The notes under the pieces were generated by a model, which made no database searches, was not told the origin of the DNA, and worked only from the letters and a program-made list of their open reading frames with translations. The translations under genes were made by a program, and so were the position numbers. Positions 570 through 20,984 of a stretch of 20,984 bases of DNA are shown in pieces (the stretch's first letter is position 1; each line of letters begins with the position of its first letter). The stretch is from a virus, in the IMG/VR virus record IMGVR_UViG_3300025687_005878, positions 1 to 20,984 of that record; one strand, 5' to 3'.

Positions 570-912
570 ATTTTGTTTTGATCTTGATGGCACTCTGTGT
601 TATACGAGAAAAGAAGATGAACACTACAGAGATGTAAAACCAATTCCTGGAGCAATTGAAACAGTTCAGAGACTAAAGGCGGAAGGTCATTATATTATTA
701 TTATGACTGCCAGAAATATGGTTACTCATAATAATAATCTTGGTAAAATTATTGCCAATCAATGTCCTATTGTGGTAGAATGGTTGGATAGGCATGGTAT
801 TCCTTATGATGAACTTCACTTTGGAAAACCTGTTGCAGATTTTTACGTCGATGACAAAGCAGTCAAACTAGAAGACTGGAATACTTTTAACAAAACTTTG
901 GAACAACTATGA
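556..912 (+). CDS. HAD-superfamily phosphatase, capsule-biosynthesis type
   Basis: Small HAD hydrolase of 118 residues, probably removing phosphate from a sugar phosphate intermediate. All HAD motifs are visible: motif I FDLDGT (nucleophile Asp9, acid/base Asp11), motif II MTAR (Thr51), motif III Lys91 in FGKP, and motif IV VDDK (Asp99-Asp100). There is no room for a large cap domain, so this is a minimal, capless phosphatase like those seen in capsule and LPS loci. The ATG at 556 places motif I near the N-terminus and overlaps the previous gene by 14 nt; an in-frame ATG at 547 would add three residues. The stop overlaps the next start as ATGA. Context links it to the preceding kinase and the following transaldolase. 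The exact substrate is unknown. Confidence 0.85.
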   Translation: MKHYRFCFDLDGTLCYTRKEDEHYRDVKPIPGAIETVQRLKAEGHYIIIMTARNMVTHNNNLGKIIANQCPIVVEWLDRHGIPYDELHFGKPVADFYVDDKAVKLEDWNTFNKTLEQL

Positions 913-3414: not shown

Positions 3415-4406
3415 AAATTTTCGTAACAGGATGCGCTGGACTTCTTGGCGCAAATTATACTAGACACCTACTTCAATACGGTCATGAGGTTATCGGTATT
3501 GATAATCTGTCTGGTGGATATAAAGCATTTGTCCCCAAAGGAGAGAACTTTACATTTGTCAAGTTGAATCTTGAGAATAGGAAGAAAGTGGTAGAACTTT
3601 TTGATGAACATAAACCAGATGTTTTACTTCACTTTGCTGCTTATGCTGCAGAAGGACTCTCTCCTTTTATTCGTAATTTCAATTATCGGAACAACTTAAT
3701 TTGCTCTACCAATCTGGTCAATGAGTGTATCAAGAATGATACCAAGATGATCTTTACATCTAGTATGGCGGTTTATGGAGAGCAAGAACCACCTTTTACT
3801 GAGGATAAGCAACCTGCTCCAGTTGATCCCTATGGCATTGCAAAGTATGCTGTAGAGTGTGATTTGAAGTTGGCACATGAACAGTTTGGTCTGCGGTATA
3901 ATATTATTCGTCCTCACAATGTTTTGGGAATTTATCAAAATATTTGGGATAAGTATCGTAATGTAATTGGTATTTTTATTCGTAAGACTTTAACTGGTGA
4001 ACCTCTTCTTGTGTATGGTGATGGAGAGCAAACTCGTGCATTTTCTGATATTCAATATTACTTGGAACCCTTTGATAAACTTCTAACGGATTACGACAAC
4101 GAAACCTTCAATATTGGTGCGGATAAATATTTTACACTCAACGAAGTTGCAGAGACAGTACAAAAGATTGGTAGGAAATATGGTTATGATGTTCCTATTG
4201 AGCATGGAGAACCACGCCATGAAGTCAAACACGCATATTGTGATCACACGAAAGCAAAGACCGTATTAGACTTCAAGGATGAAACTAACCTTGAAGAACT
4301 TATTGAAAGTATGTTTGTTTGGGCTATGAAGCAACCAAACAGAAAAGTGAAGCAGATGGAGTATGAAGTGACAAAGGATATGTATGAGTATTGGAAGGAC
4401 AACTGA
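3411..4406 (+). CDS. GalE-like NAD-dependent sugar epimerase
   Basis: Extended SDR of 331 residues resembling UDP-glucose 4-epimerases. TGCAGLLG gives the NAD-binding glycine motif (residues 6-13), and IGIDNLSGG (29-36) supplies the acidic residue for the adenosine ribose and the GalE-type loop. TSSMAVYG (117-124) precedes the catalytic YGIAK (Tyr141, Lys145), and FNIG lies in the C-terminal substrate domain. The ATG at 3411 forms an ATGA overlap with the upstream stop and puts the Rossmann strand at the N-terminus; an upstream TTG at 3399 is less likely. It probably supplies a UDP- or GDP-sugar epimer for the transferases in this operon. Substrate specificity is not determined. Confidence 0.9.
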   Translation: MKIFVTGCAGLLGANYTRHLLQYGHEVIGIDNLSGGYKAFVPKGENFTFVKLNLENRKKVVELFDEHKPDVLLHFAAYAAEGLSPFIRNFNYRNNLICSTNLVNECIKNDTKMIFTSSMAVYGEQEPPFTEDKQPAPVDPYGIAKYAVECDLKLAHEQFGLRYNIIRPHNVLGIYQNIWDKYRNVIGIFIRKTLTGEPLLVYGDGEQTRAFSDIQYYLEPFDKLLTDYDNETFNIGADKYFTLNEVAETVQKIGRKYGYDVPIEHGEPRHEVKHAYCDHTKAKTVLDFKDETNLEELIESMFVWAMKQPNRKVKQMEYEVTKDMYEYWKDN

Positions 4407-5002
4407 TGAAGTTTTTGGACAAGTTCTGCGACAAGGCACTTCACGGTGACCTTGATTCTGATCGACACATCATTTCAATTTTTTCTATTGCATTAGCATC
4501 TAGAGGAAAAACATTTGTTGAACTTGGTGTGCGAGAAGGTCACACAAGTGAACCTCTGTATGAGGCAGCAAAATTGAACAATGGACATCTTTGGTCTGTT
4601 GATCTCAATGACCCTTCAGAATACAAACCAAACAATGGTCATTACACTTTCTGCAAGCAGGACAGCATTAAGTTCCTAGAGGAATGGCCAAAGGATAAGA
4701 AGATCGATGTTGTCTATGTTGATGACTGGCATTCATATCCTCATGTCAAAAAACAACTTGAACTTCTTGATGGACTGGTTGGACCTAGCAGCATCATTCT
4801 TCTGCATGATTTGATGTATGGTGGAACTGATCCTTTCTATCACTGTGACCTTGCTCATGGCGGCGCTCAATGGGATGGTGGTGGTCCTTATCGTGCAGTA
4901 GCAGAACTTAATCCACAGTTTTGGGAGTGGTCAACTCTTCCTTGGAACAATGGACTAACAATCCTTCGTAAAAAATATAGTAATCGTTATCATAGGAGGT
5001 AA
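4406..5002 (+). CDS. Class I SAM methyltransferase (Methyltransf_24-like)
   Basis: Protein of 198 residues with a Rossmann methyltransferase core. Motif I is TFVELGVREG (about residues 36-45), HLWSVDLND (61-69) carries the acidic residue that binds the SAM ribose, and IDVVYVDDWHSY (100-111) and SSIILLHDL (128-136) match the VDAxH and HD signatures of the Methyltransf_24 group. Members of this group are common in LPS and capsule loci and O-methylate sugars. The start at ATG 4406 shares one base with the upstream TGA (TGATG). Two nucleotides separate its stop from the FkbM methyltransferase, and its 3' end carries that gene's ribosome binding site. It may cap or decorate the glycan by methylation (inference). 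Confidence 0.85.
   Translation: MKFLDKFCDKALHGDLDSDRHIISIFSIALASRGKTFVELGVREGHTSEPLYEAAKLNNGHLWSVDLNDPSEYKPNNGHYTFCKQDSIKFLEEWPKDKKIDVVYVDDWHSYPHVKKQLELLDGLVGPSSIILLHDLMYGGTDPFYHCDLAHGGAQWDGGGPYRAVAELNPQFWEWSTLPWNNGLTILRKKYSNRYHRR
4994..5000 (+). promoter_or_regulatory. Strong Shine-Dalgarno AGGAGGT for FkbM gene
   Basis: AGGAGGT lies 4 nt before the ATG at 5005 and partly inside the end of the preceding coding region. It is the best ribosome binding site in the glycan operon, where most other genes rely on overlapping stop/start codons. It suggests independent, stronger initiation at this cistron. Confidence 0.8.
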
Positions 5003-5004
5003 AC

Positions 5005-5721
5005 ATGACACAAAATCTAGCGTATAGTATGCCATTACCTGAACTGGAGGCATTTGAATATTTCAAAGACGATATCAACGTATTAGTTGATATTGGGTGT
5101 AGAGAAAATGATGAGTATTCTCAAATTAAACCAACAGCGGAGGCATATCTATTCGATGCAAATAGTTATTTCATCGATAGACTGAATGAAAAAGTCAAAG
5201 GAAACAAGAACATCAAGGTCTTTGCATTTGGTCTTTCTAATCGTAATGAAGAAGTTCAATACGATGATGATAGTGAATCAATTCTAGAGCATCGATTTAG
5301 GAAGAGTGATCTGACTACCGTCAAGGTTAGGAAGTTTGATGAGGTCATGAAGGAGTGTAAAATCCTAGGTAAGATTGATTTCTTGAAAGTTGATATTGAA
5401 GGATGTGAACCTGATATCCTTGAGCACTACGATGTTATCAAAGATATCAAGTATGTCCAGTTTGAGTTTGGTAGGGGTTGGCCAAATCTTGATAATTATA
5501 ATGTTTGGAATGTAGTAGAACAATATAAAGAAACCCATAAATGTTACTATCTCAGAGATCTTAGTCATAGTATTTGTAAAGAACATGATCTAGATCTCTT
5601 TACCTACATTGATAAAGACCTTCATGAAATTCTTCATAAGAGAATGGTGGAAGGTCCTTGGGGTGAAGGCGGAAATGTTTGGATGATCAAGAAAGAAATC
5701 GCAGAAGAACTTGGAGTTTAA
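5005..5721 (+). CDS. FkbM-family SAM-dependent methyltransferase
   Basis: Methyltransferase of 238 residues. FkbM-family landmarks are VLVDIGCRE (motif I, residues 26-34), LFDANSYF (49-56, SAM-binding acidic residue), KVRKFDEV (107-114) and the family hallmark DFLKVDIEGCEPDIL (125-139). FkbM enzymes O-methylate hydroxyls on sugars or polyketides and are frequent in phage and bacterial surface-glycan clusters. There are no membrane segments, so it is cytoplasmic. It is preceded by a strong AGGAGGT site and lies 2 nt after the previous methyltransferase. With that neighbour and the gene at 7481 it makes three methyltransferases in one operon, suggesting a multiply methylated glycan (inference). 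Confidence 0.9.
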   Translation: MTQNLAYSMPLPELEAFEYFKDDINVLVDIGCRENDEYSQIKPTAEAYLFDANSYFIDRLNEKVKGNKNIKVFAFGLSNRNEEVQYDDDSESILEHRFRKSDLTTVKVRKFDEVMKECKILGKIDFLKVDIEGCEPDILEHYDVIKDIKYVQFEFGRGWPNLDNYNVWNVVEQYKETHKCYYLRDLSHSICKEHDLDLFTYIDKDLHEILHKRMVEGPWGEGGNVWMIKKEIAEELGV

Positions 5722-5723
5722 TT

Positions 5724-6653
5724 ATGTTAGCAGCAAGTATTCATGAACATGCTGGACTTGGTAATCAAATCTGGAGAGCAGTTGTTTGTAGAGTTTTTGC
5801 AGATCGTCTCGGTTATGATTATGGAATCAGTTATCCAGGTTGGAGAGGAAAATTTCTTGATTTTGATTGGGGAAAAGAAGTAAATTTAAATGTTGAAGAA
5901 GACTTACACTTCCAACAATCACATGAGTTTCAACATTATTATAAGGAAGTGTGTGAACCTTTCCCCGAAGTCATGGGGGAGATTGGTCGAGCAGATAAAA
6001 ATCTCTGGGAACTAAAGGATAATACCTACATCAATGGTAACTTCCAGAGAATGTCATACATTGAAGATTACCGAGATAAGATTTGTGATTGGTTGTCTTA
6101 TGATGACAAGTATAAAGTAAGGGATTATTCATCAGATAATGTTTGTGTGATTCAGTTGAGGGGTGGAGACTATACTACAGGGCACTCAATGCTTCCTCCT
6201 GAGTATTATCGTTCTGCGATGACTCATATGCGTAAAAATAATCCAGACATTGAGTTTGTGATTGTGACTGATGATCTTAACACTGCAAGGAGAATGATTC
6301 CTGGTGTTCCTGTTGTTGGTTCTGCTGCTTCGGATGAAAAAGATCCCGATCAGAAATTCATCTCTTGGTATGAGTACACTGGTGGTCCTGTTTCAATTGA
6401 TTATAGTATTCTCAATACAGCAAAGTATGCTATAATATCCTCATCTACATTTGCTTTTTGGCCCATTTGGACAAATAATGAACTGGAGAATGTGATTGCA
6501 CCAATGTATTGGTTTGACTGGTCTAGGTCAACTGGTTGGTGGAGACCATACGACTCGATTGTAAATGACGAAAGATGGTTGTGGTTGGATAGGTTTGGTG
6601 ACTTGTATCAGAGTTCCGCATGTATTGAGGGAAGGGATCGTGAAAGTAATTGA
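5724..6653 (+). CDS. Divergent GT11/fucosyltransferase-like protein
   Basis: Probable glycosyltransferase of 309 residues distantly related to GT11. AGLGNQIWRAVVCRVFADRLG near the N-terminus matches the family's GLGNQ opening, and SSSTFAFWPIW occupies the place of the usual SSSFSWWGAW motif. The nucleotide-sugar motif reads IQLRGGDY (Gln144 to Asp149), so the usual His and second Arg of HxRRxDY are replaced by Gln and Gly. IEFVIVTDD corresponds to the usual VFSDD strand. I chose the ATG at 5724 because it lies 7 nt after GGAG (5713-5716) and begins just before the conserved block; an in-frame ATG at 5679 would run back into the FkbM gene. Activity or donor specificity may differ from the two canonical copies. 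Confidence 0.75.
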   Translation: MLAASIHEHAGLGNQIWRAVVCRVFADRLGYDYGISYPGWRGKFLDFDWGKEVNLNVEEDLHFQQSHEFQHYYKEVCEPFPEVMGEIGRADKNLWELKDNTYINGNFQRMSYIEDYRDKICDWLSYDDKYKVRDYSSDNVCVIQLRGGDYTTGHSMLPPEYYRSAMTHMRKNNPDIEFVIVTDDLNTARRMIPGVPVVGSAASDEKDPDQKFISWYEYTGGPVSIDYSILNTAKYAIISSSTFAFWPIWTNNELENVIAPMYWFDWSRSTGWWRPYDSIVNDERWLWLDRFGDLYQSSACIEGRDRESN

Positions 6654-7479
6654 TGTATTTCCATTTTTCAATGAACTTGATATTCTGGAAATTCGACTGA
6701 ATGTGTTAGATCCATATGTGGATTATTTCATTCTGAGTGAAGCAACCAAGACTTTCTCTGGTCTTGATAAACCATTGTATTATCAAGAGAACAAAGAAAG
6801 GTTTGCTAAGTTCAAGGATAAAATTATTCACAACATTGTTGAGGATAATACAGATCCTCGTCTTCATCCTTATGAAAGGGATATCTTTCAGAAGAATAGT
6901 ATCAAGCAACTTGTCATGGAGAAAGCATCAGATAATGATGCAATTATCTGGAGTGATGTAGATGAAGTTCCTAATCCAGAAGCAATCGAAGAAATCGATA
7001 GTTATTTTGAGAAGGATGTCATCTATCACTTTGCACAAGAGAACTGCATTGGATATCTAAATCTAGTAGAAACTACTGGTCATATTAAAGCAATGACTCC
7101 TGATTGGGGATTTGAGGATCGTGCTCGATGGTTAGGTACAAAACTTTTCAGTAAGTCAATTCTTGAAAGGTACACAATGTCCGAACTGCGAAGTAAGCAG
7201 GAACGGGAAACTAACTCTAGGATTTTCCCAGGTGGTTGGCACTGGAGTTATGTTGGGAGTGAAGGACTCTCAGTTGAAGATCGTATTATCAAGAAACTAG
7301 AGTGTGCTGCACACTTAGAATCAAACACTGATACAATTAGAATTGGCGTATCAAAAATTAAGGATAATAAAGATCCTTTGGGGAGAAATTATGCTGCATA
7401 TCAAACAGTTCCTATTAATCACTCCTATCCAGAATACATTGTTAACAACAAAGAAAAGTACTCTTATTTAATTAAATAA
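6640..7479 (+). CDS. GT17-like glycosyltransferase, GTG start
   Basis: Glycosyltransferase of 279 residues resembling GT17 (the beta-1,4-N-acetylglucosaminyltransferase III family). The opening FFNELDILEIRLNVLDPYVD, then LSEATKTFSG, PLYYQENKERF and the acidic IIWSDVDEVPNP (DxDE, likely metal/nucleotide-sugar site) follow the order expected for this family. GGWHWSYVG lies further on. The start is the GTG at 6640, preceded by the purine-rich GAGGGAAGGG; it begins directly at the conserved VIDVFPFFNE block and overlaps the previous gene by 14 nt. An in-frame ATG at 6565 would add 25 residues unlike the family. It probably transfers an aminosugar or hexose to the glycan; donor and acceptor are unknown. 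Confidence 0.8.
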   Translation: MKVIDVFPFFNELDILEIRLNVLDPYVDYFILSEATKTFSGLDKPLYYQENKERFAKFKDKIIHNIVEDNTDPRLHPYERDIFQKNSIKQLVMEKASDNDAIIWSDVDEVPNPEAIEEIDSYFEKDVIYHFAQENCIGYLNLVETTGHIKAMTPDWGFEDRARWLGTKLFSKSILERYTMSELRSKQERETNSRIFPGGWHWSYVGSEGLSVEDRIIKKLECAAHLESNTDTIRIGVSKIKDNKDPLGRNYAAYQTVPINHSYPEYIVNNKEKYSYLIK

Positions 7480-7480
7480 A

Positions 7481-8050
7481 ATGTCTCACAAAGAACAACA
7501 AGATTATTTTCAATCTGTAAAGGATAAATTTCCAGAATCATTCATTGGGAAAAAAGTTCTTGATATTGGATCTTATGATTTGAATGGAACTAATGAATAT
7601 CTTTTTACCGAATGTGAATTCACTGGATTAGATATTGAGGAAGGTCCAGGTGTTGATATTGTATGCGAAGCACAGAAATATGATGCTCCAGATGAGTCTT
7701 ATGATGTAATTATATCGAGTGAGTGTTTTGAGCATAATCCTTACTATAAGGAGACTATTCAAAATGCTATCCGTATGTTAAAATCTGGAGGATTCTTTTT
7801 GTTTGCCTGTGCTACTACTGGTAGACCTGTTCATGGTCTTGGATCTCAACAAGAAGAAATGTTGAGAACAGATCCTACCTGGACTGTTATGCCTAGTGCA
7901 AAGCATGAAAATTGGCAAACTGAGTATTATAAAAATCTTACTGAAGAAGACATTAGAGAAGTTATTGACATTGAAGAAACATTTTCTTCTCATGAATTCT
8001 CTGTGCATGAAGAGCACTGTGATCTTTATTTCTGGGGATTTAAAAAATGA
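7481..8050 (+). CDS. Class I SAM methyltransferase (Methyltransf_11-like)
   Basis: Methyltransferase of 189 residues. The core motifs are KVLDIGSYDLNG (motif I), FTGLDIEEGPGVDIV (acidic residue at the end of beta2), YDVIISSECFEH (motif after beta4) and MLKSGGFFLFACAT (beta5 region). This order is standard for Methyltransf_11-type enzymes acting on small molecules or sugars. It begins one base after the previous stop without an obvious ribosome binding site, which suggests coupling. It ends in an ATGA overlap with the next gene. It may methylate a glycan residue or the activated sugar; its sequence alone does not fix the substrate. Confidence 0.85.
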   Translation: MSHKEQQDYFQSVKDKFPESFIGKKVLDIGSYDLNGTNEYLFTECEFTGLDIEEGPGVDIVCEAQKYDAPDESYDVIISSECFEHNPYYKETIQNAIRMLKSGGFFLFACATTGRPVHGLGSQQEEMLRTDPTWTVMPSAKHENWQTEYYKNLTEEDIREVIDIEETFSSHEFSVHEEHCDLYFWGFKK

Positions 8051-8751
8051 TTGAATTGCCTGATGTAACTCTATTTGCTTTTGATAATACCCCCAAAATA
8101 GAAGAAACTATTCAAGCACTTTATACCAGCATGAATGGTATAAAGTATGGTGCGATTAAAATGGTTACTTCCAAAGAACAAATAGAACAGTATCGATCTC
8201 AACTTGAACCAGATGGTATCATTCTGGAAGAACCAGTGATGGAAGTTAATAATTATAATGATTATAATTACTACTGGATCTACAAAGTTGGGGAACATAT
8301 TGATACATCTCATTGTCTCTTAATTCAATCGGATGGTTTTGTTTTATTCCCAGAGAAATGGGATGATGCATGGTTGGAATATGATTACATTGGTGCTCCA
8401 TGGCCTTTAGTAAAAGATTCTTATTTGGATCCATGGGGAAATCCACAACGTGTTGGTAATGGTGGTTTTTGTTTGATGAGTAAAAAACTTCTTGATGTGC
8501 CAAATAATGTAGAGGTTCCTTGGGAAATAAACAATAGTGATTTCTATAAGATGCCACCAGGAGTTGTAAATTACCATGGAGATGGTAATGTATGTGTTCA
8601 TAATAAACACATCTATGTTGAACATGGGTGTAAGTTTGCACCAGTAGATGTTGCAGTGAGGTTCTCACAGGAGAATAGACTTAAAGAATGTGAAGGTATT
8701 ACGCCATTTGGATTTCATTATCGGTTACCACCAGGAGTTGAACTATCATGA
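8047..8751 (+). CDS. DUF5672-like glycosyltransferase
   Basis: Protein of 234 residues resembling DUF5672, a family found in surface-polysaccharide loci and regarded as glycosyltransferase-like. Recognisable features are SHCLLIQSDGFVLFPEKWDD, YDYIGAPW and the glycine-rich RVGNGGFCLMSKKLLD, which together resemble a GT-A active-site arrangement with Asp in IQSDG. The C-terminal part contains HGDGNVCVHNK and FGFHY. No membrane helix or signal peptide is visible. It overlaps both neighbours by 4 nt (ATGA), within the glycan operon. The family match is from memory of motifs; biochemical activity is inferred. Confidence 0.75.
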   Translation: MIELPDVTLFAFDNTPKIEETIQALYTSMNGIKYGAIKMVTSKEQIEQYRSQLEPDGIILEEPVMEVNNYNDYNYYWIYKVGEHIDTSHCLLIQSDGFVLFPEKWDDAWLEYDYIGAPWPLVKDSYLDPWGNPQRVGNGGFCLMSKKLLDVPNNVEVPWEINNSDFYKMPPGVVNYHGDGNVCVHNKHIYVEHGCKFAPVDVAVRFSQENRLKECEGITPFGFHYRLPPGVELS

Positions 8752-9530
8752 TTGGTTCTAATTACATTGGCAGGAATGGGCGCTTTGCCAATCAAATGTT
8801 TCAGTATGCTGCTTTGATGGGTATTGCAGCAAAGCATGAGTATGACATCTGCATTCCTTCTGGTCCGAAGACTGAGGAGGAATTTACTGATGAAGAGAAT
8901 CAGCACAAACTCTTTATGGCATTTGATTTAAGTGCCAGAGAAGGAGCAGGTTTTATGGAGTATAGACAAGAAAAGTCATTTACTTTTGATCAAGAACTAT
9001 TTGATACTTGTCCTGATCACATTAGTCTGTATGGATTTTTTCAGACAGAAAAATACTTCAAGCATATTGAAGATGAGATTCGCAAAGAGTTTACCTTCAA
9101 AGAAAGTATTCGCAAAGCATGTGAAGAGTCATTCCCATTTGAAGATGCTATCTCTTTGCATGTTCGTCGCAGCGACTATGTTCAAAAACAAAGTTATCAT
9201 CCCCTCTGTCCTCTAGAATATTATGAAGCAGCATTGGAGAAACTTCCTAAAGATGTACCAGTTATCATCTTTTCTGATGATCCTGAGTGGTGTATGAATC
9301 AAGATTTATTTCAACCAGATAGATTTAATGTATCCGAAACATATAATAACCTTATTGACATGTGTTTAATGACAATGTGTAGTTTTCATGTTATTGCTAA
9401 CTCATCATTCTCTTGGTGGGGTGCATGGTTGGCAGATAGTGCAAAGGTGATTGCACCAAAGGTTTGGTTTGGTCCTCAAGCAAATCTTGATGATAGCGAT
9501 CTTGTTCTTAAGTCTTGGGAGAGAATCTGA
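8748..9530 (+). CDS. GT11 alpha-1,2-fucosyltransferase-like glycosyltransferase (copy 2)
   Basis: Second canonical GT11 enzyme, 260 residues. The opening is GRFANQMFQYAALMG, and the nucleotide-sugar motif is HVRRSDY (His138 to Asp143 plus Tyr), with Ser replacing the usual Gly. VIIFSDDPEWC and ANSSFSWWGAWL complete the family pattern. It is paralogous to the gene at 2566-3414, sharing start context (MIG), SLYGFFQ-E-YF and the C-terminal IAPK-WFGP block, but is diverged throughout, so the two copies may have different acceptors. It overlaps the DUF5672-like gene by 4 nt and shares one base with the next start. Likely cytoplasmic. Confidence 0.9.
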   Translation: MIGSNYIGRNGRFANQMFQYAALMGIAAKHEYDICIPSGPKTEEEFTDEENQHKLFMAFDLSAREGAGFMEYRQEKSFTFDQELFDTCPDHISLYGFFQTEKYFKHIEDEIRKEFTFKESIRKACEESFPFEDAISLHVRRSDYVQKQSYHPLCPLEYYEAALEKLPKDVPVIIFSDDPEWCMNQDLFQPDRFNVSETYNNLIDMCLMTMCSFHVIANSSFSWWGAWLADSAKVIAPKVWFGPQANLDDSDLVLKSWERI

Positions 9531-10288
9531 TGCCAGAGTTTAGTATTGCTATTCCCACCCATGATCGTGGGAAGAATGGTCCGAAGTGGATGAGGCAATT
9601 GCTGACCACTTTGCAGAATCAAACCTTCCGTGATTTTGATATTGTTGTATCGGATCAGAGTAAGAATGATAACATTCTAAATGTTTGTAAAGAATACTCT
9701 GATGAGTTTGATTTTACCTATGTCAGATACGAAGGAACTGTTCCTTGCGAAAATATTAATATCGCCCTCAGCGAGTGTACGGGAAGAATTATCAAGATTA
9801 TGTTCTCTGATGATGTTCTCGTTGATGACAGCGCCTTAGAGATTATTCAGAATGCGTATAATGATACTGGGTGTAAGTGGGCATTTAGTGGGTTCTGTGG
9901 CACTCGTGATGGAGAGAATACTTATGAGCATAAAATCCCAATGTGGACTGACTATATGCTGGAGGGTAGAAACCTCCTGAGCAGTCCATCTGTAGTCTCA
10001 TTTTTGAATGAGTGCAAACTTGAATTTGATGAGAATCTCAAGTTGTTTCTTGACACAGACTTCTACCATAGGATGCGATGGGAACATGGTATGCCGCACA
10101 TCATCAAAGATGTATTGGTTGCCAACCGAGATCATAATGAAAGGATCAGTAGTCATGCAACCTCACAGTATGACGGTATCTTTCAACACCCTGAAGGGGG
10201 TTGGCAAATTAATATTAGTGAGTTAAAATATCTACAGTCCAAGTATCCAGACTTCTGTAAGAATAGGAAATACCCAGATGAAAATTAA
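9530..10288 (+). CDS. GT2 family glycosyltransferase
   Basis: GT-A fold transferase of 252 residues. FSIAIPTHDRG is the first nucleotide-binding strand and loop, LLTTLQNQTFRDFDIVVSDQS continues the GT2 pattern, and IKIMFSDDVLVDD carries the acidic metal-binding motif (SDD). A later FLDTDFYHRMRW segment is in the position of the catalytic ED-like motif. The ATG at 9530 shares one base with the preceding TGA (TGATG); an in-frame TTG at 9515 would only add five residues. No membrane segment is seen, unlike processive GT2 enzymes, so it probably adds one sugar. It overlaps the next gene by 11 nt. Confidence 0.85.
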   Translation: MPEFSIAIPTHDRGKNGPKWMRQLLTTLQNQTFRDFDIVVSDQSKNDNILNVCKEYSDEFDFTYVRYEGTVPCENINIALSECTGRIIKIMFSDDVLVDDSALEIIQNAYNDTGCKWAFSGFCGTRDGENTYEHKIPMWTDYMLEGRNLLSSPSVVSFLNECKLEFDENLKLFLDTDFYHRMRWEHGMPHIIKDVLVANRDHNERISSHATSQYDGIFQHPEGGWQINISELKYLQSKYPDFCKNRKYPDEN

Positions 10289-11093
10289 TTTAGAAAAAGC
10301 AACATTTATTGTACCTATTCGCATTGAGTCTGATGATAGACTTAGAAATGTTATTACAATAGTAGCATTTTTGCTTGAAAACTTTAATACGAATATCATC
10401 ATAAAAGAAGTTGATTCTTATTCTGTATTTCAGGAGAAAGCAGTTCCTATTTTAAAAGAAATACTTGAGGAAGATATTAATGTAAAACATATTTTTCATA
10501 AAGATGATAAACCTTTGTTCCATCGACAAAGAGTTTTGAATGAGATGATTATGGAATCAGATACTGAAATAGTCGTTAATTATGACTGTGATGTGTTGCT
10601 TCCAATTTATTCTTATTATCATGCTTATGAATTGATTTTGAATAAAACATATGATGTTGTATATCCATATTCTGAAGGAATGTATCAATATCAAGTAAAG
10701 GCAGATGACGAAGTAGTTTCTGAATTTTTGCAGGATTATAATTTTTCTTGTTTAGATAAAAATTCAAATTTACATACTTCTGATTTTGGTTGGGTTCAAT
10801 TTTTCAATCGTCAAGTTTATATTGAAGGTGGTATGGAAAATGAAAACTTTAAAGCATATGCACCAGAGGATAAGGAAAGATTTTACAGATATAATACTTT
10901 AGGGTATAATGTGGGAAGAGTAGATGGATATGTCTATCACTTAGAACATATAAGGGGGCAGAATTCCTGGTTTAATAATCCACATATGGATATTAATATG
11001 AGTGAATGGGATAAGATTCAGAAAATGAACAAAGAACAACTTTTAGATTATTACCAAAAGCAATTTTATTTGAAAAAATATGGACAAAAATAA
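10278..11093 (+). CDS. GT2/GT27-like glycosyltransferase
   Basis: Protein of 271 residues with a GT-A type organisation. An N-terminal strand ATFIVPIRIES is followed by an acidic VVNYDCDVLLP (DxD motif) after a FHRQRVLNEMI helix. A C-terminal GWVQFFNRQVYIEGGMENENF block then resembles the Galactosyltransferase C-terminal region (GG(M/F)-E-F) of GT27 and chondroitin-polymerase-like enzymes, with APEDKER downstream. AGGAAA at 10265-10270 precedes the ATG by 7 nt, and the gene overlaps its upstream neighbour by 11 nt and the downstream GT25 gene by 14 nt. Its stretch is more AT-rich than its neighbours. Donor and acceptor are unknown. Confidence 0.75.
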   Translation: MKINLEKATFIVPIRIESDDRLRNVITIVAFLLENFNTNIIIKEVDSYSVFQEKAVPILKEILEEDINVKHIFHKDDKPLFHRQRVLNEMIMESDTEIVVNYDCDVLLPIYSYYHAYELILNKTYDVVYPYSEGMYQYQVKADDEVVSEFLQDYNFSCLDKNSNLHTSDFGWVQFFNRQVYIEGGMENENFKAYAPEDKERFYRYNTLGYNVGRVDGYVYHLEHIRGQNSWFNNPHMDINMSEWDKIQKMNKEQLLDYYQKQFYLKKYGQK

Positions 11094-11865
11094 ATCTGCG
11101 TATAAACTTCAAGGTATTCCTCCCATTTATTATTTGAACTTGGATGGTCAGGAAGATCGAAGAGAATACATGGAATCTCAGATGAAATACTGGGAGATTG
11201 GAAACTATGAACGTATTTCTGCATACGATGGCAGGTTTGACGATCTTAGTGATATTATCAAGGGCAAGTATCCAGAAAACATGACTTCTGGTGAGATTGG
11301 TTGTACTACCTCTCACCTCAAGGCAATCAAGCATTGGATGGAAACATCTGATTCTCCATGTGCTATTTTTATGGAAGATGATGTTGACCTTCAAATTGTT
11401 AAGAATTGGGATTTTACTTGGAAAGATTTTTATGGATTAATTCCATATGACTATGATGTCATACAGTTAGCGATAATTTGCACTGGCCCACTTCATGTTA
11501 CCTTACACAAAAGGTTTGTTAATGATTTTTCTACTGCTGCATATATGATCACTCGTCATCATGCGGAGAAACTACTTAGACATCATGTTCGTGGAGATAA
11601 GTATAAGTTGGATCAAGGTATTAAACCTCGTGCAGTTGCAGATGATTTGATTTATAATTCTGGAAATACTTTTTCTATCCCCTTATTCTTATATAAAATT
11701 TCTTTGGGTTCATCTATTCATCCAGAACATGTTGATTTGATTCACAGGCAAAATTATAATGGACTTCTGGAGCATTGGCAAATAAAAGGTCCAGACATGG
11801 ATATCAAAAGTCTTATGAATTATGATCCATATCTAGGAAGAATTACAGAAAATCCTCCAGGATAA
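11080..11865 (+). CDS. GT25 (LPS-type) glycosyltransferase
   Basis: Glycosyltransferase of 261 residues of the GT25 family, known for galactosyl/glucosyl transfer in LPS core synthesis. The N-terminal YYLNLDGQEDRREYM, the middle SGEIGCTTSHLKAIKHW and the acidic AIFMEDDVDL (EDDV metal/nucleotide-sugar site) are the family's three characteristic blocks in the correct order. AAYMITRHHAEKLL follows in the position of the usual GYLIS segment. It overlaps the previous gene by 14 nt and is the last gene of the glycan operon: a terminator begins 40 nt after its stop. Likely cytoplasmic, acting on the lipid-linked or protein-linked acceptor. Confidence 0.9.
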   Translation: MDKNKSAYKLQGIPPIYYLNLDGQEDRREYMESQMKYWEIGNYERISAYDGRFDDLSDIIKGKYPENMTSGEIGCTTSHLKAIKHWMETSDSPCAIFMEDDVDLQIVKNWDFTWKDFYGLIPYDYDVIQLAIICTGPLHVTLHKRFVNDFSTAAYMITRHHAEKLLRHHVRGDKYKLDQGIKPRAVADDLIYNSGNTFSIPLFLYKISLGSSIHPEHVDLIHRQNYNGLLEHWQIKGPDMDIKSLMNYDPYLGRITENPPG

Positions 11866-13460: not shown

Positions 13461-16400
13461 GTGGCACTTAAGAAACCATCGGAATTTTTTAAAGTAAATA
13501 AAATTTCTTCTATTAATGAAGAAGTGGAGAAAATTTCAAAAGATCTTCAAGATGATAATCTTGAGGAAAAAATTTCAGCGTCTTTTAGTAATATTGATGG
13601 TGTTTTTTCGGATATTCAAAGACAACTTCAAGAGTCTAGTGACAATAAAATAAAAGTAGTAAAGGATGAAATAGTAAAACTTTACAAGGTAGTAGATAAT
13701 ATTGTTGAAAATGATATCCCAAAATATAAAAAACACTTAAGTACTACTGAACTTCGTGTTGAGAGTAGAATTAAAAATTTAAAAGATGAACTTTGCGAGC
13801 ATTTAGATTGTCAGGTAAAGAGCACTAGAAATAAGATAGAAGAATTATATAAAGAAACTCTTGATGAGGAACTTTTTAGTGCCAGAAAATTTGTTAAGGA
13901 TATATATCGATCTGAAATTCAAATTGCAGTTGAGAAATATGTTTCCACTTACTCAGAAGATATTGTTTCGCTGAGGGAAGAACTGCTTAGTGAAATTAAA
14001 AAAAGACCAAAAACTTTAGTACATATAGAAACTAAGTTAGAAGAACTTTCTAAAAAATATAGAGTTTTATCTGAAAATCTAAACAACATTGAAACCAATG
14101 ATCCTCTTTTAAATACAAATCCAATAACATTAGAGCAGTTAAAAACACATTATCAGATACTTGTTGGTAGACTTCAAGAGCAACTCGCCTCTCTTGGTGG
14201 TGGCGGTGAAGTTCGCCTTGAATTTCTAGATGATGTTGATAGGAATTCTGCAAAAGTTAATGGTAAGTTTTTAAAATATGATAGTTCAGTTGGTAAGTGG
14301 ATTGGTGCAGACGCTAGTGGCGGTGTATCTGATATTGTCGATGACTTAACACCACAACTTGGTGGTGACTTAGACCTCAACGGTAGTGATATTACTGGTA
14401 CAGGTAATATTAATATCACTGGTGATGCAAGAATTGCTGGTATCCTGACTGTTGGAACTGGATCTGTAACTATAAATGGCAATGATGATTCAATAACTAT
14501 TGGTAATAATTTAACCATTACTTCTTCGGGAAACGCTGAATATTCTGGAGTTGTTACTGCAACCTCTTTTTCTGGTGATGGTTCAAATTTAACTGGAGTT
14601 ATTACTAGTTTAAATGGTTATGCAACTGAAGCGTATGTAGATCTCGCAGTTGCTGGAGTTAACACATTCACTGGTGCTGCTACCAGTATCACTGCAACTC
14701 AGATAGTAAATTGGGACACTGCTTATAGTTGGGGAGATCACTCAATTGCTGGATACGTTACCTCTATTTCATTAGTAGGTTACGCAACAGAAGGATATGT
14801 CGATAATGCTGTCTCTGGTGTCTCTACCTTCTCTGGTGACTATGCAGATTTAACAAATAAACCCACGATTCCATCTGATACTGGAGACCTTACTAATAAT
14901 GTTGGATTCATTACCGCTGGGTCTTTAGTTGGTTATGCAACAGAAACTTTTGTTAATAATGCAGTTGCTAATTTAGTTGATAGTGCTCCATCAACGTTGG
15001 ATACTCTTAATGAATTAGCTTCTGCTTTGGGAGATGACCCAAATTTTGCAACAACTATTACTACTTCTTTAGGGAACAAAGCAAATTTATCTGGAGCATC
15101 TTTTAGTGGAGTTGTTACTGCAACTTCTTTTGTTGGCGATGGTTCAAATTTAACTGGACTTTCCACTTTCTCTGGTGACTATGCAGATTTAACAAATAAA
15201 CCTACTATCCCCTCAGATACTGGAGACCTTACTAATAATGTTGGATTCATTACCGCTGGATCTTTAGTTGGTTATGCAACAGAAGGATATGTTGATAATG
15301 CTGTAGTTGGTTTTGTTACTTCGGGTATTGTAGTTGGTTATGCTACAGAGGGGTATGTTGATAACGCTGTCTCTGGTGTTTCTACCTTCTCTGGTGACTA
15401 TAATGATTTGACAAATAAACCCAGTTTGGGTGATCTTTCTGATGTTAGTTCTTCTACTCCTTCTGCAGGGCAAGTTTTAAAGTGGTCTGGTTCTGAATGG
15501 CAACCTGCTGCAGATCTCACTGCTGCTGGTGGAAGTGGTATTGGATTGACAGATTTATCTGTAGTTGTAAATTCTGCTGGAATAAATTCTTTAAGTTATA
15601 GTAACATAACTGGTGTCTTTGAATTTACCCCCACATCACTAGTAGGATATGCCACCGAAGGTTATGTTGATAATGCTGTAGTTGGTTTTGTTACTTCTGG
15701 AATCGTAGATGGGTATGCAACAGAAGTTTATGTTAATAATGCTCTAGTTGGTTATGCAACAGAAGGATATGTTGATAATGCTGTAGTTGGTTTTGTTACT
15801 TCTGGAATCGTAGTAGGATATGCAACAGAAGGATATGTTGATAATGCTGTAGTTGGTTTTGTTACTTCTGGAATCGTAGTAGGATATGCAACAGAAGGAT
15901 ATGTTGATAATGCTGTTTCTGGTGTCTCTACCTTCTCTGGTGACTATGCAGATTTAACAAATAAACCTACGATTCCATCTGATACTGGTGATTTAACTAA
16001 TAGTGTTGGATTCATTACCGCTGGGTCTTTAGTTGGTTATGCTACGGAGGGGTATGTTGATAATGCTGTAGTTGGTTTTGTTACTTCGGGTATTGTAGTT
16101 GGTTATGCAACAGAAGGATATGTTGATAATGCAGTAGTTGGTTTTGTTACTTCTGGAATCGTAGATGGGTATGCAACAGAAGTTTATGTTAATAATGCTC
16201 TAGTTGGTTATGCGACAGAAACTTTTGTTAATAATGCAGTTGCCAATTTAGTTGATAGTGCTCCAGGGACTTTGGATACTCTTAATGAGTTAGCCGCTGC
16301 TTTAGGAGATGACCCAAATTTTGCAACAACTATTACTACTTCTTTAGGGAACAAAGCAAATTTATCTGGAGCATCCTTTACTGGAATTACCACTATTAGT

Positions 16401-19025
16401 CAACTAAACGTTACTGGTATTTCTACGTTAGGAGTTACCACTGTAACTGACCTAACAGCACAACAGATAAATGTTTCTGGGATTGTTACTGCTACTAGAT
16501 TTGAAAGTTCTTCTACTGGAACTCCAACTATTGATTCCCCCAATAATATAAACATTAATGCTGTTAATGTTGCAATTAGTACAGATTTAACTGTTGGTAG
16601 GAATCTTTATACAAGTGACTTTAATGCTACAGGTAATGCTGAGGTATCTGGAATTGTCACTGCGACTACTTTTGCTGGAAGTCTTACTGGTAATTCTACT
16701 ACAGCAACTTCTTTACAGACAGCAAGAACTTTTGAAATAACTGGAGATGTTGTTGGACATGCAGTATCTTTTGATGGTACTGGAAATGTTTCTATTGCAG
16801 CAACTATTCAACCAGATAGTGTTACATTGGGTCAAGATACTACTGGTATTTATGTTGCTTCTATTTCTGGTACTTCTGGGGAAATAGAAGTATCTGGTTC
16901 TGGAAATGAACAGTCATCAGTTACGATTGGTCTGCCCGATTATGTTACAGTAACGGGAATTAACGCTTCTGGTATTGTTACTGCCACTACTTTCACTGGT
17001 GATGTAATTGGTAATGCGACATCTGCTACTGTATTACAAACCTCAAGAAATATTGGTGGTGTTTTATTCAATGGTTCTAGCGATATTGATCTTCCTGGTG
17101 TTAATCTTCCTGGCAATCAACCAATTAATACTTCTGGTGTCATTACTGCAACCACCTTTAGTGGATCTGGTGCTTCTTTAACATCTATCCCTAATGGTGC
17201 TCTTAATAACTCATCAGTTTCTTATGGTGGTGTAAGTCTAGCACTAGGTGGAACTGATGCTACACCAGCATTTGACCTATCTGATGCAACTAATTATCCT
17301 TATACAAGTCTCACTGGTATTACCACAGAAATCGTAGGAGACACAACACCACAATTAGGTGGCAATTTAGATCTTAATAGTAAGAATGTTACTGGCACTG
17401 GTAACTTTAATGTAACTGGTGTTATTACTGCTACCACTTTTGTTAAGTCTGGTGGCACATCATCACAGTTCTTGAAAGCAGACGGTACTGTCGATAGCAA
17501 CACTTATCTAACTGCTGAGGCACAAACTCTTGATGGTGTCTTAACACTAGGAAACACATCAAGTAATGGAATGAGTGTTGGTGTCGTCACGGCATCTTCA
17601 TTTATCAGGTCTGGTGGCACATCGTCACAGTTCTTGAAAGCAGACGGTACTGTCGATTCAAGCACCTATCTTACATCAGCACTACAGAATGTTGTAGAAG
17701 ATACTTCTCCACAATTAGGTGGCAATTTAGATCTTAATAGTAATGATATAACTGGTACTGGTAACATTAATATTACTGGTAGTGTAGAAGCAACTGGTGT
17801 TTCTACATTTAGTGATACTGTAAACATAATAAGTTCTAATGTTTATTTCACCGAAGGTTTTAATATTTTAACTCCTCTTGGTCACACAATGGTGAACCTT
17901 GGTTCATCTAGCGTTGGCATCTTTAATAGGGACTTTAGAGTTTCCAATAAAGATTTTTACGTAGAAAATTTATTTAATAATGATAGACCTTTCTTTGTTG
18001 ATAATACTGGTTCATCTGATCCAAGTAAGGTAGGAATTAATAGTTCAACACCAAGATCAGAACTTGATGTTCGTGGAAATCTGATTGTCTCTGGTATTTC
18101 TACACTAGGAGTTACCACTGTAACTGACCTAACAGCACAACAGATAAATGTCACTGGTGTTTCTACAATAGGAGTTTCTAATAACCAAATTATTTTTACA
18201 ACAGATGGCGGGCTTGGTGCAATACAAAGCGCATCATCCTCTGGGTTAAAAATTCAAAGGGGAACAACAGATACAATTAATATTAATACTGGTCAAGTAA
18301 CAATTACAAATCATGATTTAAGTGTAAATGACAATAGCAGAGTAGGATCTGCTATCGCAATGTACGGTGCTACTGGCATTGTAAGTGCAACTCAATTTGT
18401 TGGTGATGGATCTGGATTAACTAATATTGTTTCCACTGGAGTTGGAGTTCAAGTACAAAATGAAGGATCACCAGTAGGAACCGCTGCAACAATTAACTTT
18501 ACAGGATCATTAATTGATGCTACACTAAGTAATGGAGTTGCAACAGTTAGTGTTTCTGGTGTTGGTACTGGAACATACGCTTTTACTTATGGTACTCTTA
18601 CAACACTTACTACTAATTATGCCGTTACTGGACTTGTTGGAAACATAAAACCAACTTCTGCGAGCAGTAAGGTAATGGTTACGGTTACTATTCCAGTTTA
18701 TATGAATTCTTCTAATGTTGGTCAATTACAACTAATGGAAATTGCTTTGACAAGATATAATGGATCCCAGGATATAATTCAATATTCAGCATATGCTGGA
18801 GACTGGGATGCAGGCATATCTGCTACTGCTAGAAAGGATATTGGTCAAACTATCTCATTCTCATACTTGGATTCGCCAGCATCTGCATCTAATCAAATAT
18901 ATAAAATATATGCCAGAGCGCAAAACACCAATGGGAATTACTATGTATTCACTGCACTTGATTTTGCAAATACAGGGAGTCTTATATCAAAAGGTGGACA
19001 AATGACATTAGAGGAAAGGAGTTAA
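13461..19025 (+). CDS. Long tail fibre protein with repeat modules
   Basis: Virion protein of 1854 residues, expected to be a trimeric tail fibre that contacts the host surface. Residues 1-240 are charged and heptad-like, consistent with a coiled-coil baseplate-attachment part; the opening MALKKPSEFF resembles other cyanophage structural proteins. At 245-290 is an FLDDVD-VNGKFLKYDSSVGKWIGAD fibre motif. From about residue 385 to 920 come GYATEGYVDNAVVGFVTSGIV and STFSGDYADLTNKPTIPSDTGDL repeats, and GDLSDVSSSTPSAGQVLKW. Residues 920-1690 hold GIVTATTF, QLGGNLDLN and SGGTSSQFLKADGTVDS repeats, typical beta-helical fibre modules. The last 150 residues form a distinct beta-rich C-terminal domain, a likely receptor tip; no self-cleaving chaperone (S74) motif is seen. 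The start is GTG, with only a weak purine-rich upstream region. Confidence 0.92.
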   Translation: MALKKPSEFFKVNKISSINEEVEKISKDLQDDNLEEKISASFSNIDGVFSDIQRQLQESSDNKIKVVKDEIVKLYKVVDNIVENDIPKYKKHLSTTELRVESRIKNLKDELCEHLDCQVKSTRNKIEELYKETLDEELFSARKFVKDIYRSEIQIAVEKYVSTYSEDIVSLREELLSEIKKRPKTLVHIETKLEELSKKYRVLSENLNNIETNDPLLNTNPITLEQLKTHYQILVGRLQEQLASLGGGGEVRLEFLDDVDRNSAKVNGKFLKYDSSVGKWIGADASGGVSDIVDDLTPQLGGDLDLNGSDITGTGNINITGDARIAGILTVGTGSVTINGNDDSITIGNNLTITSSGNAEYSGVVTATSFSGDGSNLTGVITSLNGYATEAYVDLAVAGVNTFTGAATSITATQIVNWDTAYSWGDHSIAGYVTSISLVGYATEGYVDNAVSGVSTFSGDYADLTNKPTIPSDTGDLTNNVGFITAGSLVGYATETFVNNAVANLVDSAPSTLDTLNELASALGDDPNFATTITTSLGNKANLSGASFSGVVTATSFVGDGSNLTGLSTFSGDYADLTNKPTIPSDTGDLTNNVGFITAGSLVGYATEGYVDNAVVGFVTSGIVVGYATEGYVDNAVSGVSTFSGDYNDLTNKPSLGDLSDVSSSTPSAGQVLKWSGSEWQPAADLTAAGGSGIGLTDLSVVVNSAGINSLSYSNITGVFEFTPTSLVGYATEGYVDNAVVGFVTSGIVDGYATEVYVNNALVGYATEGYVDNAVVGFVTSGIVVGYATEGYVDNAVVGFVTSGIVVGYATEGYVDNAVSGVSTFSGDYADLTNKPTIPSDTGDLTNSVGFITAGSLVGYATEGYVDNAVVGFVTSGIVVGYATEGYVDNAVVGFVTSGIVDGYATEVYVNNALVGYATETFVNNAVANLVDSAPGTLDTLNELAAALGDDPNFATTITTSLGNKANLSGASFTGITTISQLNVTGISTLGVTTVTDLTAQQINVSGIVTATRFESSSTGTPTIDSPNNININAVNVAISTDLTVGRNLYTSDFNATGNAEVSGIVTATTFAGSLTGNSTTATSLQTARTFEITGDVVGHAVSFDGTGNVSIAATIQPDSVTLGQDTTGIYVASISGTSGEIEVSGSGNEQSSVTIGLPDYVTVTGINASGIVTATTFTGDVIGNATSATVLQTSRNIGGVLFNGSSDIDLPGVNLPGNQPINTSGVITATTFSGSGASLTSIPNGALNNSSVSYGGVSLALGGTDATPAFDLSDATNYPYTSLTGITTEIVGDTTPQLGGNLDLNSKNVTGTGNFNVTGVITATTFVKSGGTSSQFLKADGTVDSNTYLTAEAQTLDGVLTLGNTSSNGMSVGVVTASSFIRSGGTSSQFLKADGTVDSSTYLTSALQNVVEDTSPQLGGNLDLNSNDITGTGNINITGSVEATGVSTFSDTVNIISSNVYFTEGFNILTPLGHTMVNLGSSSVGIFNRDFRVSNKDFYVENLFNNDRPFFVDNTGSSDPSKVGINSSTPRSELDVRGNLIVSGISTLGVTTVTDLTAQQINVTGVSTIGVSNNQIIFTTDGGLGAIQSASSSGLKIQRGTTDTININTGQVTITNHDLSVNDNSRVGSAIAMYGATGIVSATQFVGDGSGLTNIVSTGVGVQVQNEGSPVGTAATINFTGSLIDATLSNGVATVSVSGVGTGTYAFTYGTLTTLTTNYAVTGLVGNIKPTSASSKVMVTVTIPVYMNSSNVGQLQLMEIALTRYNGSQDIIQYSAYAGDWDAGISATARKDIGQTISFSYLDSPASASNQIYKIYARAQNTNGNYYVFTALDFANTGSLISKGGQMTLEERS
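14928..15104 (+). repeat. 177-bp fibre repeat, copy 1
   Basis: This block encodes VGYATETFVNNAVANLVDSA through NKANLSGASF (59 residues). Copy 2 at 16203-16379 has only a few differing residues and long runs of identical DNA, pointing to recent internal duplication or repair between copies. Confidence 0.85.
15267..15398 (+). repeat. 66-bp tandem repeat units in the fibre (first array)
   Basis: One full 22-residue unit (VGYATEGYVDNAVVGFVTSGIV at 15267-15332) is followed by a partial copy from 15333, which diverges into the STFSGDY module. Same unit as the larger arrays downstream. Confidence 0.85.
15642..15938 (+). repeat. 66-bp tandem repeat array in the fibre (second array)
   Basis: Full 66-bp units start at 15642, 15747 and 15813, with a partial unit at 15879. 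A 39-bp spacer module (DGYATEVYVNNAL, 15708-15746) separates the first two. DNA identity between units is very high, including the third codon positions. Confidence 0.9.
16032..16202 (+). repeat. 66-bp tandem repeat array in the fibre (third array)
   Basis: Units start at 16032 and 16098, followed by the same 39-bp DGYATEVYVNNAL module (16164-16202). The 105-bp unit-plus-module at 16098-16202 is a copy of 15642-15746. Confidence 0.88.
16203..16379 (+). repeat. 177-bp fibre repeat, copy 2
   Basis: Second copy of the block at 14928-15104, placed directly after the third 66-bp array. The differences are conservative (for example SAPS to SAPG and ASAL to AAAL). Confidence 0.85.
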
Positions 19026-19029
19026 AGAA

Positions 19030-19335
19030 ATGATTACTATTTTAGATTCCATTAGATCTCTTGGAGCATACGAAGAAGTAATTTGTGTAGTTGGTGAATG
19101 TTATGAAGGAATAGAATGGAAAAATGGACCTGCACTTAGCAAAGAACAAGTAGAAAATGAACTTGAACGCTTACAAAATGAGGAAAGATCAAAAGAATAT
19201 CAAAGACTTCGTGAGTTTGAATATCCAGATTTTAGAGAGTATTTGGATGGAGTTGTGAAGGGAGATCAGGATCAGATCCAACAGTACATTCAAAAATGTT
19301 TGGATGTTAAAGAAAAGTATCCTAAACCAGAGTAA
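19030..19335 (+). CDS. Small tail-fibre-associated protein (possible assembly factor)
   Basis: Protein of 101 residues in the usual place of a fibre assembly factor, 4 nt after the fibre stop and with AAAGGAG (19015-19021) 8 nt before its ATG. The N-terminal MITILDSIRSLGAYEEVICV is followed by a charged helix (LSKEQVENELERLQNEE) and YQRLREFEYPDFREYLDGVVKGD, then YIQKCLDVKEKYPKPE. The YQRLR-EYP-YLD-VVKGD pattern recalls short proteins encoded next to tail fibres in many phages, including those annotated as fibre-assembly or XkdW-like. No membrane segment is present. Being cotranscribed with the fibre fits a chaperone or minor structural role; function is inferred. Confidence 0.75.
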   Translation: MITILDSIRSLGAYEEVICVVGECYEGIEWKNGPALSKEQVENELERLQNEERSKEYQRLREFEYPDFREYLDGVVKGDQDQIQQYIQKCLDVKEKYPKPE

Positions 19336-19346
19336 GAACAAAGACT

Positions 19347-20984
19347 ATGGCAAGATTGAAACCAGTTGATAATATTGAAGAATTAGAATCTTCTGAAGAT
19401 ACAAAAATTATTCAATATAGTCCTGATCCAATTGATGAATATATTGTTATTGTAAAGGATCCAAAAGACTGGGAAGAAGTGCATTCTTATATTATTGAAG
19501 AAAATGAAATTGATGGAATTCCTAATAGAAGAATAGAGTGTATCAATAATCAAGAGTATTCATTGAGGTCAGCAATATACTCAATGAGTTTAGAAGAATC
19601 TGAAATTCTTAAAACTCATTCGAAAATAGAATCTGTTGAATTAAATCCAGAAAAATATCCTCAAGCACCAGATCTTTGTATTGCTCGCTGGGGAAAATCT
19701 GTTGCATTCAATAAACCTGCTTTGCCAGCAGCACTTGATTCTGAAACAATAACACATACAAATGGAATACGTTCTAATTGGTCGGTTTTATTTGCAAATA
19801 ATGCAAGTAGTGAACCATTTAAAGGAGTGGGGATAACTTCAACAACGTATCATGCAACTGATGTTGAATACTCTTTGAGTGGAAAAAATGTGGATGCGGT
19901 TATTATCGACAGTGGAGTTGGGCATATCCATCCAGAATTCAAAAATGATGATGGGACATATAGAACAAAAGATTTGATACTTGATGGACCATATAAGGTT
20001 GATCCTACCTACTTTGAATCTAATGGATATACGTATAACAAAGTCATAGATGGTGTGTCTATGGGAGTCGGAATTGACACAACTGCTGCTCATGCTTGGT
20101 GGTCAAACACTTCATCTAGGTCACCAGAGTTTGCTTCATTGGGAACCGTGACTATTACTTCTCTCTATACGATGGAACATTGTTCATCGAAGACAACAAA
20201 TTCAAATTCCAATCAACTTATTGATGGGCATGGAACTGCATGTGCTTCTCAAATTGGAGGTAAATCATTTGGATTGGCATTTGAATGTAATGTTTGGGGG
20301 ATAAGAATTTCCCTTGGGGGCGTCGGTGGATATTTGGATGCTTCTGTAGCATTAAATGCGTGTACTATTTTTCATAATGCTAAAAAGATTTCTCAAAATG
20401 CAGATCCAGATCCAACCATAACAAATAATAGTTATGGTTTTACTTCTAGTACTGGGAATACTTCTGGAGTACAGTATACCCATCAATATAGAGGTCAAAC
20501 TCTAACATATACTGGCACTGGTAGTAATTTTTCGGTACCTGCATCTGGAGGCGCTTGTAGAAATCATAAAGTTTTTTCATACAATAGTTCTGGAACTGCA
20601 TCATTGACTGGATATAGTGGATCTGGTCAATATACTCCAGTTCAATCTGGTACTACATCTGACTCTGCTGCAGAAAATGCAATTGCTGCTGGGGTAATAG
20701 TTGTTTCTGCTAGTGGAAATCAAAATCAAAAAATGTCAGATGAAACTGATGTTGATTTTGATAATTGGTATTCATATTCTTCAAATTATATTAATAGAGT
20801 TGGAGGAGTTCAAAAGGGATTCAGTGGTTCTCATACTAAAACTTCAGGTGCTATTCGTGTTGGTGCTTTAGATTGCTCTGTTGAACCAGCAGATGCGAAA
20901 CAAGGATCTTCTCCATATTCTGTACGAAAGGTTTGTTATTCGAACAATGGACCTATGATTACTGTATGGGCTCCAGGAGAAATG
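19347..20984 (+). CDS. Subtilisin-like (S8) serine protease with I9-like propeptide (3' partial)
   Basis: 546 residues are present before the window ends. Residues about 30-110 (EYIVIVKDPKDWEEVHSYII, later LRSAIYSMSLEESEILKTHS-KIESVELNPE) resemble an inhibitor I9 propeptide, the intramolecular chaperone of subtilases. The catalytic domain follows: VDAVIIDSGVGHIHPEF supplies Asp188, LIDGHGTACASQIGG supplies His295, and VVSASGNQNQ supplies the oxyanion Asn458. ITVWAPGEM at the window end is the usual segment (VAPG) just before the GTSMA serine motif, which lies outside. The D-H gap of 107 residues is longer than in subtilisin, implying an insertion. No signal peptide is seen. It starts 11 nt after the fibre-associated gene, so it may be a virion-borne protease; that is inference. 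Confidence 0.88.
   Translation, partial: MARLKPVDNIEELESSEDTKIIQYSPDPIDEYIVIVKDPKDWEEVHSYIIEENEIDGIPNRRIECINNQEYSLRSAIYSMSLEESEILKTHSKIESVELNPEKYPQAPDLCIARWGKSVAFNKPALPAALDSETITHTNGIRSNWSVLFANNASSEPFKGVGITSTTYHATDVEYSLSGKNVDAVIIDSGVGHIHPEFKNDDGTYRTKDLILDGPYKVDPTYFESNGYTYNKVIDGVSMGVGIDTTAAHAWWSNTSSRSPEFASLGTVTITSLYTMEHCSSKTTNSNSNQLIDGHGTACASQIGGKSFGLAFECNVWGIRISLGGVGGYLDASVALNACTIFHNAKKISQNADPDPTITNNSYGFTSSTGNTSGVQYTHQYRGQTLTYTGTGSNFSVPASGGACRNHKVFSYNSSGTASLTGYSGSGQYTPVQSGTTSDSAAENAIAAGVIVVSASGNQNQKMSDETDVDFDNWYSYSSNYINRVGGVQKGFSGSHTKTSGAIRVGALDCSVEPADAKQGSSPYSVRKVCYSNNGPMITVWAPGEM

Follow-up and report, generated by a model that had tools for sequence, protein, structure and literature searches.

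Subtilases of the T4-like cyanophages are catalogued as a family in public databases, and the cluster T4-GC 292 is annotated 'contains PF00082' in P-SSM2 and S-SSM7. Here, we report the analysis of a member encoded at the right end of a 20,984-base virus contig (IMG/VR record IMGVR_UViG_3300025687_005878), the whole of which is referred to as the window. Its closest described counterparts, PSSM2_297 of P-SSM2, SSSM7_232 of S-SSM7, and gp144 of S-SCSM1, are homologous to it over nearly the full length, with the same catalytic residues and in the same cassette, but are about 28-30% identical to it and differ in upstream gene arrangement. The S8 proteases of S-H38, S-CREM1, Sf-FR1, S-RSM4, S-WAM2, ACG-2014e/h/i/j, and S-CAM4 are 23-26% identical to the window protein where matched; in S-H38, S-CREM1, Sf-FR1, ACG-2014h, and S-RSM4, the gene immediately before that of the protease is of baseplate/tail type or unassigned, and the one after it is in most cases a structural or fibre gene. 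An S8 peptidase was mentioned in 2010 for the cyanomyoviruses P-HM1 and P-HM2 (PMC3037559). The S8 domain of P-HM1 lies inside an 1832-aa tail-region protein, upstream of the neck genes, and this protein gave no match to the window protein at 1e-5. Among solved structures, the S8 enzymes proteinase K and aqualysin I are the best matches by profile and fold; the phage enzyme differs from both in having three large inserts and a C-terminal extension, and both are secreted with signal peptides.

With three tblastn queries from different branches, relatives were identified in at least 49 phage records, a figure in which RefSeq/GenBank pairs count twice. All are from cyanophages or marine viruses. 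For comparison, a closely matching major capsid gene is present in about 460 records named Synechococcus, Prochlorococcus, or 'Cyanophage'; the initial annotation's view that subtilases are uncommon in T4-type tail modules is not supported for this phage group. An alignment scan of IMG/VR gave 164 related stretches, 80 of which were kept. When 84,980 genomes were scanned with an alignment, no cellular homologue was found; the method relies on short conserved peptides and would overlook remote relatives. A partial literature search found no functional study of the family, no paper dealing with a cyanophage subtilase in the virion or during adsorption, and no report of the points put together here, namely linkage to a partner with a gp9 fold, optional presence at the site, and strict catalytic conservation.

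The window and its subtilase gene

The left part of the window is occupied by a sugar/LPS-type cluster (nucleotide-sugar epimerases, glycosyltransferases, and methyltransferases), followed by genes for a high-light-inducible protein, ferredoxin, and peroxiredoxin in the same order as S-SCSM1 gp237-gp232. This biosynthesis cluster is long (positions 547-11865), includes a phosphoheptose isomerase-like gene, and resembles that of S-SCSM1. At the right end, an 1854-aa tail fibre is followed by a 101-aa protein and then the subtilase. Gene content and homologue matches suggest that the window derives from a T4-like cyanophage resembling P-SSM2 and S-SCSM1. The T4-type late promoter CTATAAATA gave no signal (4 matches at one mismatch, 10 expected). 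The features of the right end are as follows:

13461..19025, + strand: tail fibre, 1854 aa; its N-terminal 270 residues match the gene 5′ of the subtilase in relatives
19030..19335, + strand: 101-aa gene between fibre and subtilase, phrog_9114 (PHROG match)
19347..20984, + strand: subtilase gene, 5′ 546 codons, phrog_9158 / T4-GC 292 family (ORF and family match)
19431..19643, + strand: I9-like prodomain, residues ~29-99, predicted beta-alpha-beta-beta-alpha-beta (AlphaFold2 model of relative L016, weak sequence support)
19908..19910, + strand: catalytic Asp188 codon (family alignment)
19911..20228, + strand: Asp-to-His stretch, a family-typical folded insert, 107-residue spacing (alignment and model)
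20229..20231, + strand: catalytic His295 codon (family alignment)
20718..20720, + strand: oxyanion-hole Asn458 codon (family alignment)

The subtilase open reading frame starts with ATG and runs for 546 aa to an open 3′ end at the contig edge, and about 140 codons, including that of the catalytic Ser, fall off the contig. No sequence beyond this end was found in IMG/VR by exact match of the last 42 bases, which returned one identical contig (IMGVR_UViG_3300025687_004346; 100% identity across all its 11,183 b) ending on the same base as the window, and the end is therefore an assembly break.

The window subtilase matched phrog_9158 (E 8e-54, residues 30-545); the truncated piece on its own had no Pfam match. 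Its motifs (D188 in VIIDSGV, H295 in DGHGTACAS, and N458 in VSASGN) all align with columns invariant across the family, which confirms the Asp188/His295/Asn458 set first proposed from the DNA. The lack of a signal peptide was likewise borne out, as neither a signal peptide nor a hydrophobic segment was found in the window subtilase (highest 19-residue Kyte-Doolittle mean, 0.12; first 60 residues), as would be expected if the protein joins virions during their assembly in the cytoplasm.

Catalytic conservation, predicted fold, and putative propeptide

The catalytic residues are invariant in all family members covering them (Asp, 89/89; His, 88/88; Asn, 87/87; Ser, 83/83), with some near-identical copies included in these alignment counts. 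The Ser count answers by proxy for the window, whose own Ser is off the contig. Four loci about 60-70% identical to the window (L003, L005, L006, and L007) continue for 110-145 further codons, all with GTSAA, and the site reads NGTSAACPNA in L003 (70% identical). PF00082 was matched in 9 of 10 members scanned (best E 1e-28), the tenth being the truncated window piece; a chance motif match is excluded because full-length relatives score far above the cut-off (L003, 54.6 bits against 21.8). Among PDB entries, a profile of ten members picked out aqualysin, keratinase, and proteinase K (best match 4dzt, E 3e-21), and dN/dS in close pairs was about 0.2-0.4, indicating purifying selection. Taken together, the invariant residues, the PF00082 and PDB matches, and dN/dS argue that the gene is kept as an enzyme, for which proteolytic activity is predicted.

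A catalytically dead scaffold or adhesin, keeping the subtilase fold only, is very improbable and was rejected for the family, given four catalytic positions invariant in all covering in-family members and purifying selection, although pseudo-enzymes may exist at the family edge, where one locus (L130) has Glu in place of the catalytic Asp. The L130 gene (3863-6430) is a divergent subtilase behind a gp9-like domain gene, with the Glu in TLEVGP and with His, Asn, and GTS kept; it is possibly a pseudo-enzyme or a variant.

A full-length relative (L016; 690 aa, 70% identical to the window) was modelled with AlphaFold2 (pLDDT 77). The model has a subtilisin fold, and its top Foldseek matches in the PDB were all proteinase K/subtilisin-like, including zymogens (E 1e-12; TM 0.7 by target; best structures, 2b6n and 4dzt). 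The N-terminal domain (residues 26-96) follows the element order of an I9 propeptide (E26-33 H36-48 E62-64 E72-78 H79-86 E91-96), and a linker, poorly ordered in parts (residues 97-165), leads into the subtilisin core. I9 identity was not reached from sequence alone: PF05922 (I9) was matched in 3 of 25 members, with a best E of 0.025, a poor match, and hhalign against two subtilisin propeptides (approximate sequences) gave a probability of 7% over 24 columns (aligned stretch of 24 residues, MS.EE.E.L..HPKIE.V.LNP). The I9-like propeptide suggested earlier thus stands on the predicted fold order of L016, with weak sequence support.

Spacings in the L016 core (Asp-His, 107; His-Asn, 163; Asn-Ser, 118) are larger than those of subtilisin BPN′ (about 32, 91, and 66, respectively), and about 110-120 residues lie C-terminal to the Ser. 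The Asp-His insert had been singled out as unusual; its 107 residues were confirmed, yet this length is ordinary for the family, in which the spacing is 52-125 (about 102-125 in window-like and S-SSM7-like members; 73-87 in P-SSM2-like members, with 83 in P-SSM2 against 107 in the window clade; and a short 52-57 in S-H38 and Sf-FR1). The insert is folded in the L016 model, mostly at pLDDT 80-95.

An optional gene in a baseplate/tail-fibre cassette

At most loci, the subtilase starts -4 to +6 nt from the upstream stop. The upstream genes vary in length from 79 to 2203 aa, some of them being truncated at a contig end, and their last ~103 residues are common to 68 of 87 loci. This partner domain, modelled at pLDDT 95, had T4 gp9 as its best fold match in the PDB (1qex; E 2.2e-5; TM 0.69 by query), an entry whose title names the trigger of tail contraction and long-tail-fibre connector; next came a Klebsiella phage KP1 baseplate chain and tailspikes. 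The likeness to gp9 is one of fold and is limited to this C-terminal domain of the partner. In S-SSM7, the upstream gene is annotated as baseplate wedge tail fibre protein connector. The usual downstream gene, about 20 nt past the subtilase stop, is fibre-type with the N-terminus MADK.FGVK.INLIGASGTP. The subtilase sits in a baseplate/tail-fibre cassette, in keeping with its initial placement in an adsorption module.

No gp9-like domain was found in the window, whose fibre ends without it. By position, the fibre nonetheless corresponds to the partner that carries this domain in relatives, because its N-terminal region is homologous to that partner (40% identity to the L041 partner over 255 aa; the C-termini differ). 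Many near-identical repeats (GYATEGYVDNAV.GVSTFSGDYADLTNKPTIPSDTGDLTN) run through the fibre and are likely prone to recombination. The phrog_9114 gene is missing from the same spot in most relatives, and its product may be a small tail-assembly-type protein. With this protein and a fibre lacking the domain as the window neighbours, the gp9-like domain fails as a dock for some members.

When two versions of the partner domain were each scanned as a single sequence, 70 loci were recovered, some of which overlap loci already in the set; 58 had an adjoining family-type subtilase, 2 ended too early, and 10 had none by the family model. One of these ten is L130, with its divergent subtilase; no subtilase was found in L134, L135, L137, L138, L139, and L140 (six loci, five with distinct domain sequences; L139 and L140 taken as a pair), and the fibre lay directly 3′ of the partner domain in the five subtilase-less loci whose next gene was read. 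Twenty phage records contain the partner domain; in 18 the subtilase lies side by side with it, and the other two, both S-SRM01, lack an S8 domain. The 18 of 20 records had suggested a strict two-gene module, a reading weakened by the subtilase-less domain loci and by members without the domain. As the same flanks occur without a subtilase, the partner does not require the protease, which is a facultative accessory with a fixed place in the baseplate/tail-fibre cassette. Two further arrangements were observed at this site. In L126, a 136-aa gene (1977-2387), possibly an alternative cargo, takes the usual subtilase place between the gp9-like domain gene and a MANK fibre, and in L173 (3795-7255), a tandem pair of subtilase-family genes follows one gp9-like domain gene.

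The near-overlapping genes and the conserved domain at the C-terminus of the upstream partner, together with a cytoplasmic enzyme that has no signal peptide, would suit a maturation protease that cuts the adjoining fibre/connector during assembly and, for example, releases its C-terminal part, in the manner of an enzyme dedicated to tail-fibre processing. However, the partner domain needs no subtilase, since the six loci above keep both the domain and the downstream fibre without the enzyme; conversely, the window clade and L003 hold the enzyme without the domain, and the lectin and Ig fusions described below better fit an enzyme on the virion surface. Fibre maturation, one of the roles initially envisaged, is weakened by these genomes, in which the flanking genes are kept but the subtilase is missing, and we consider it unlikely, though it is the main rival to a protease carried on the virion.

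Fusions, possible virion association, and proposed role

S-SCSM1 gp144 (1411 aa) joins the subtilase to LamG lectin domains, LamG fusions also occur in L038 and L091, and the S-TIM54 subtilase is fused to Ig domains and an esterase-type alpha/beta-hydrolase. These fusion partners are virion-surface-type modules. The S-TIM54 protein (L009:9992-16414; 2140 aa), which is of virion type, carries the esterase-like alpha/beta-hydrolase between the propeptide region and the subtilase, with the Ig domains after, and so combines two hydrolases within one tail-region protein.

In the S-SCSM1 record, gp144 is tagged '(virion protein)'. Mass spectrometry found 45 virion proteins in S-SCSM1 (PMC9602691), and we counted 47 virion tags in the record, including all three enzymes named as detected by mass spectrometry in that paper, with structural genes such as those for the terminases, gp012, gp020, and gp161 untagged. 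We read the tag as detection by mass spectrometry. Since gp144 is a 1411-aa fusion, its peptides may stem from the lectin part. Virion presence is given indirect support, by a record tag and the count in a paper, for this one homologue.

The S-SCSM1 authors noted that virions purified on CsCl may still be accompanied by enzymes (PMC9602691), which would be compatible with a soluble late enzyme, merely encoded among tail genes, that is released at lysis or acts on host proteins in the dying cell (suggested targets: periplasm, debris, and receptors). The gene also stands alone in most members, as such an enzyme might. Its fixed place among structural genes, the fusions to large structural/adhesin regions, and the S-SCSM1 virion tag argue otherwise, and we regard this explanation as improbable. 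Carriage on the virion, the other role raised in the initial annotation, gains indirect support from that tag, the lectin/Ig fusions, and the tight linkage to the gp9-like connector domain.

The most likely reading, which we favour at slightly better than even, is that of a virion-borne, self-activating S8 surface protease at the host-contact end of the tail. The subtilase would be made in the cytoplasm and built into the baseplate/fibre region; its I9-like N-terminal domain would fold the enzyme and then probably be cut off, and the mature enzyme would stay with the fibre/connector from the adjoining gene, positioned at the end of the tail that meets the host. There, it would cut cyanobacterial surface proteins (S-layer-like or outer-membrane), and this cleavage would open the way to the receptor or free the virion. 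Propeptide removal, attachment at the connector, and host surface proteins as the substrate are the steps that we infer.

More tentatively, and with rather less than even confidence, the locus may represent an exchangeable proteolytic adsorption cassette, in which a gp9-like-ended connector/fibre, a self-activating subtilase, and a fibre are combined and the virion protease opens the picocyanobacterial protein coat. Because the catalytic residues are so strictly conserved and the gene is optional at one defined site, its role can be tested directly in cultured phages such as P-SSM2 and S-SSM7. If true, the cutting of host surface proteins by a protease at the tail tip would amount to a distinct way of entering the cell, used by some of the ocean's most abundant phages. 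Sugar-digesting tail enzymes are well known; tailspike depolymerases open capsules, and the proposed cyanophage protease would open a protein coat likewise.
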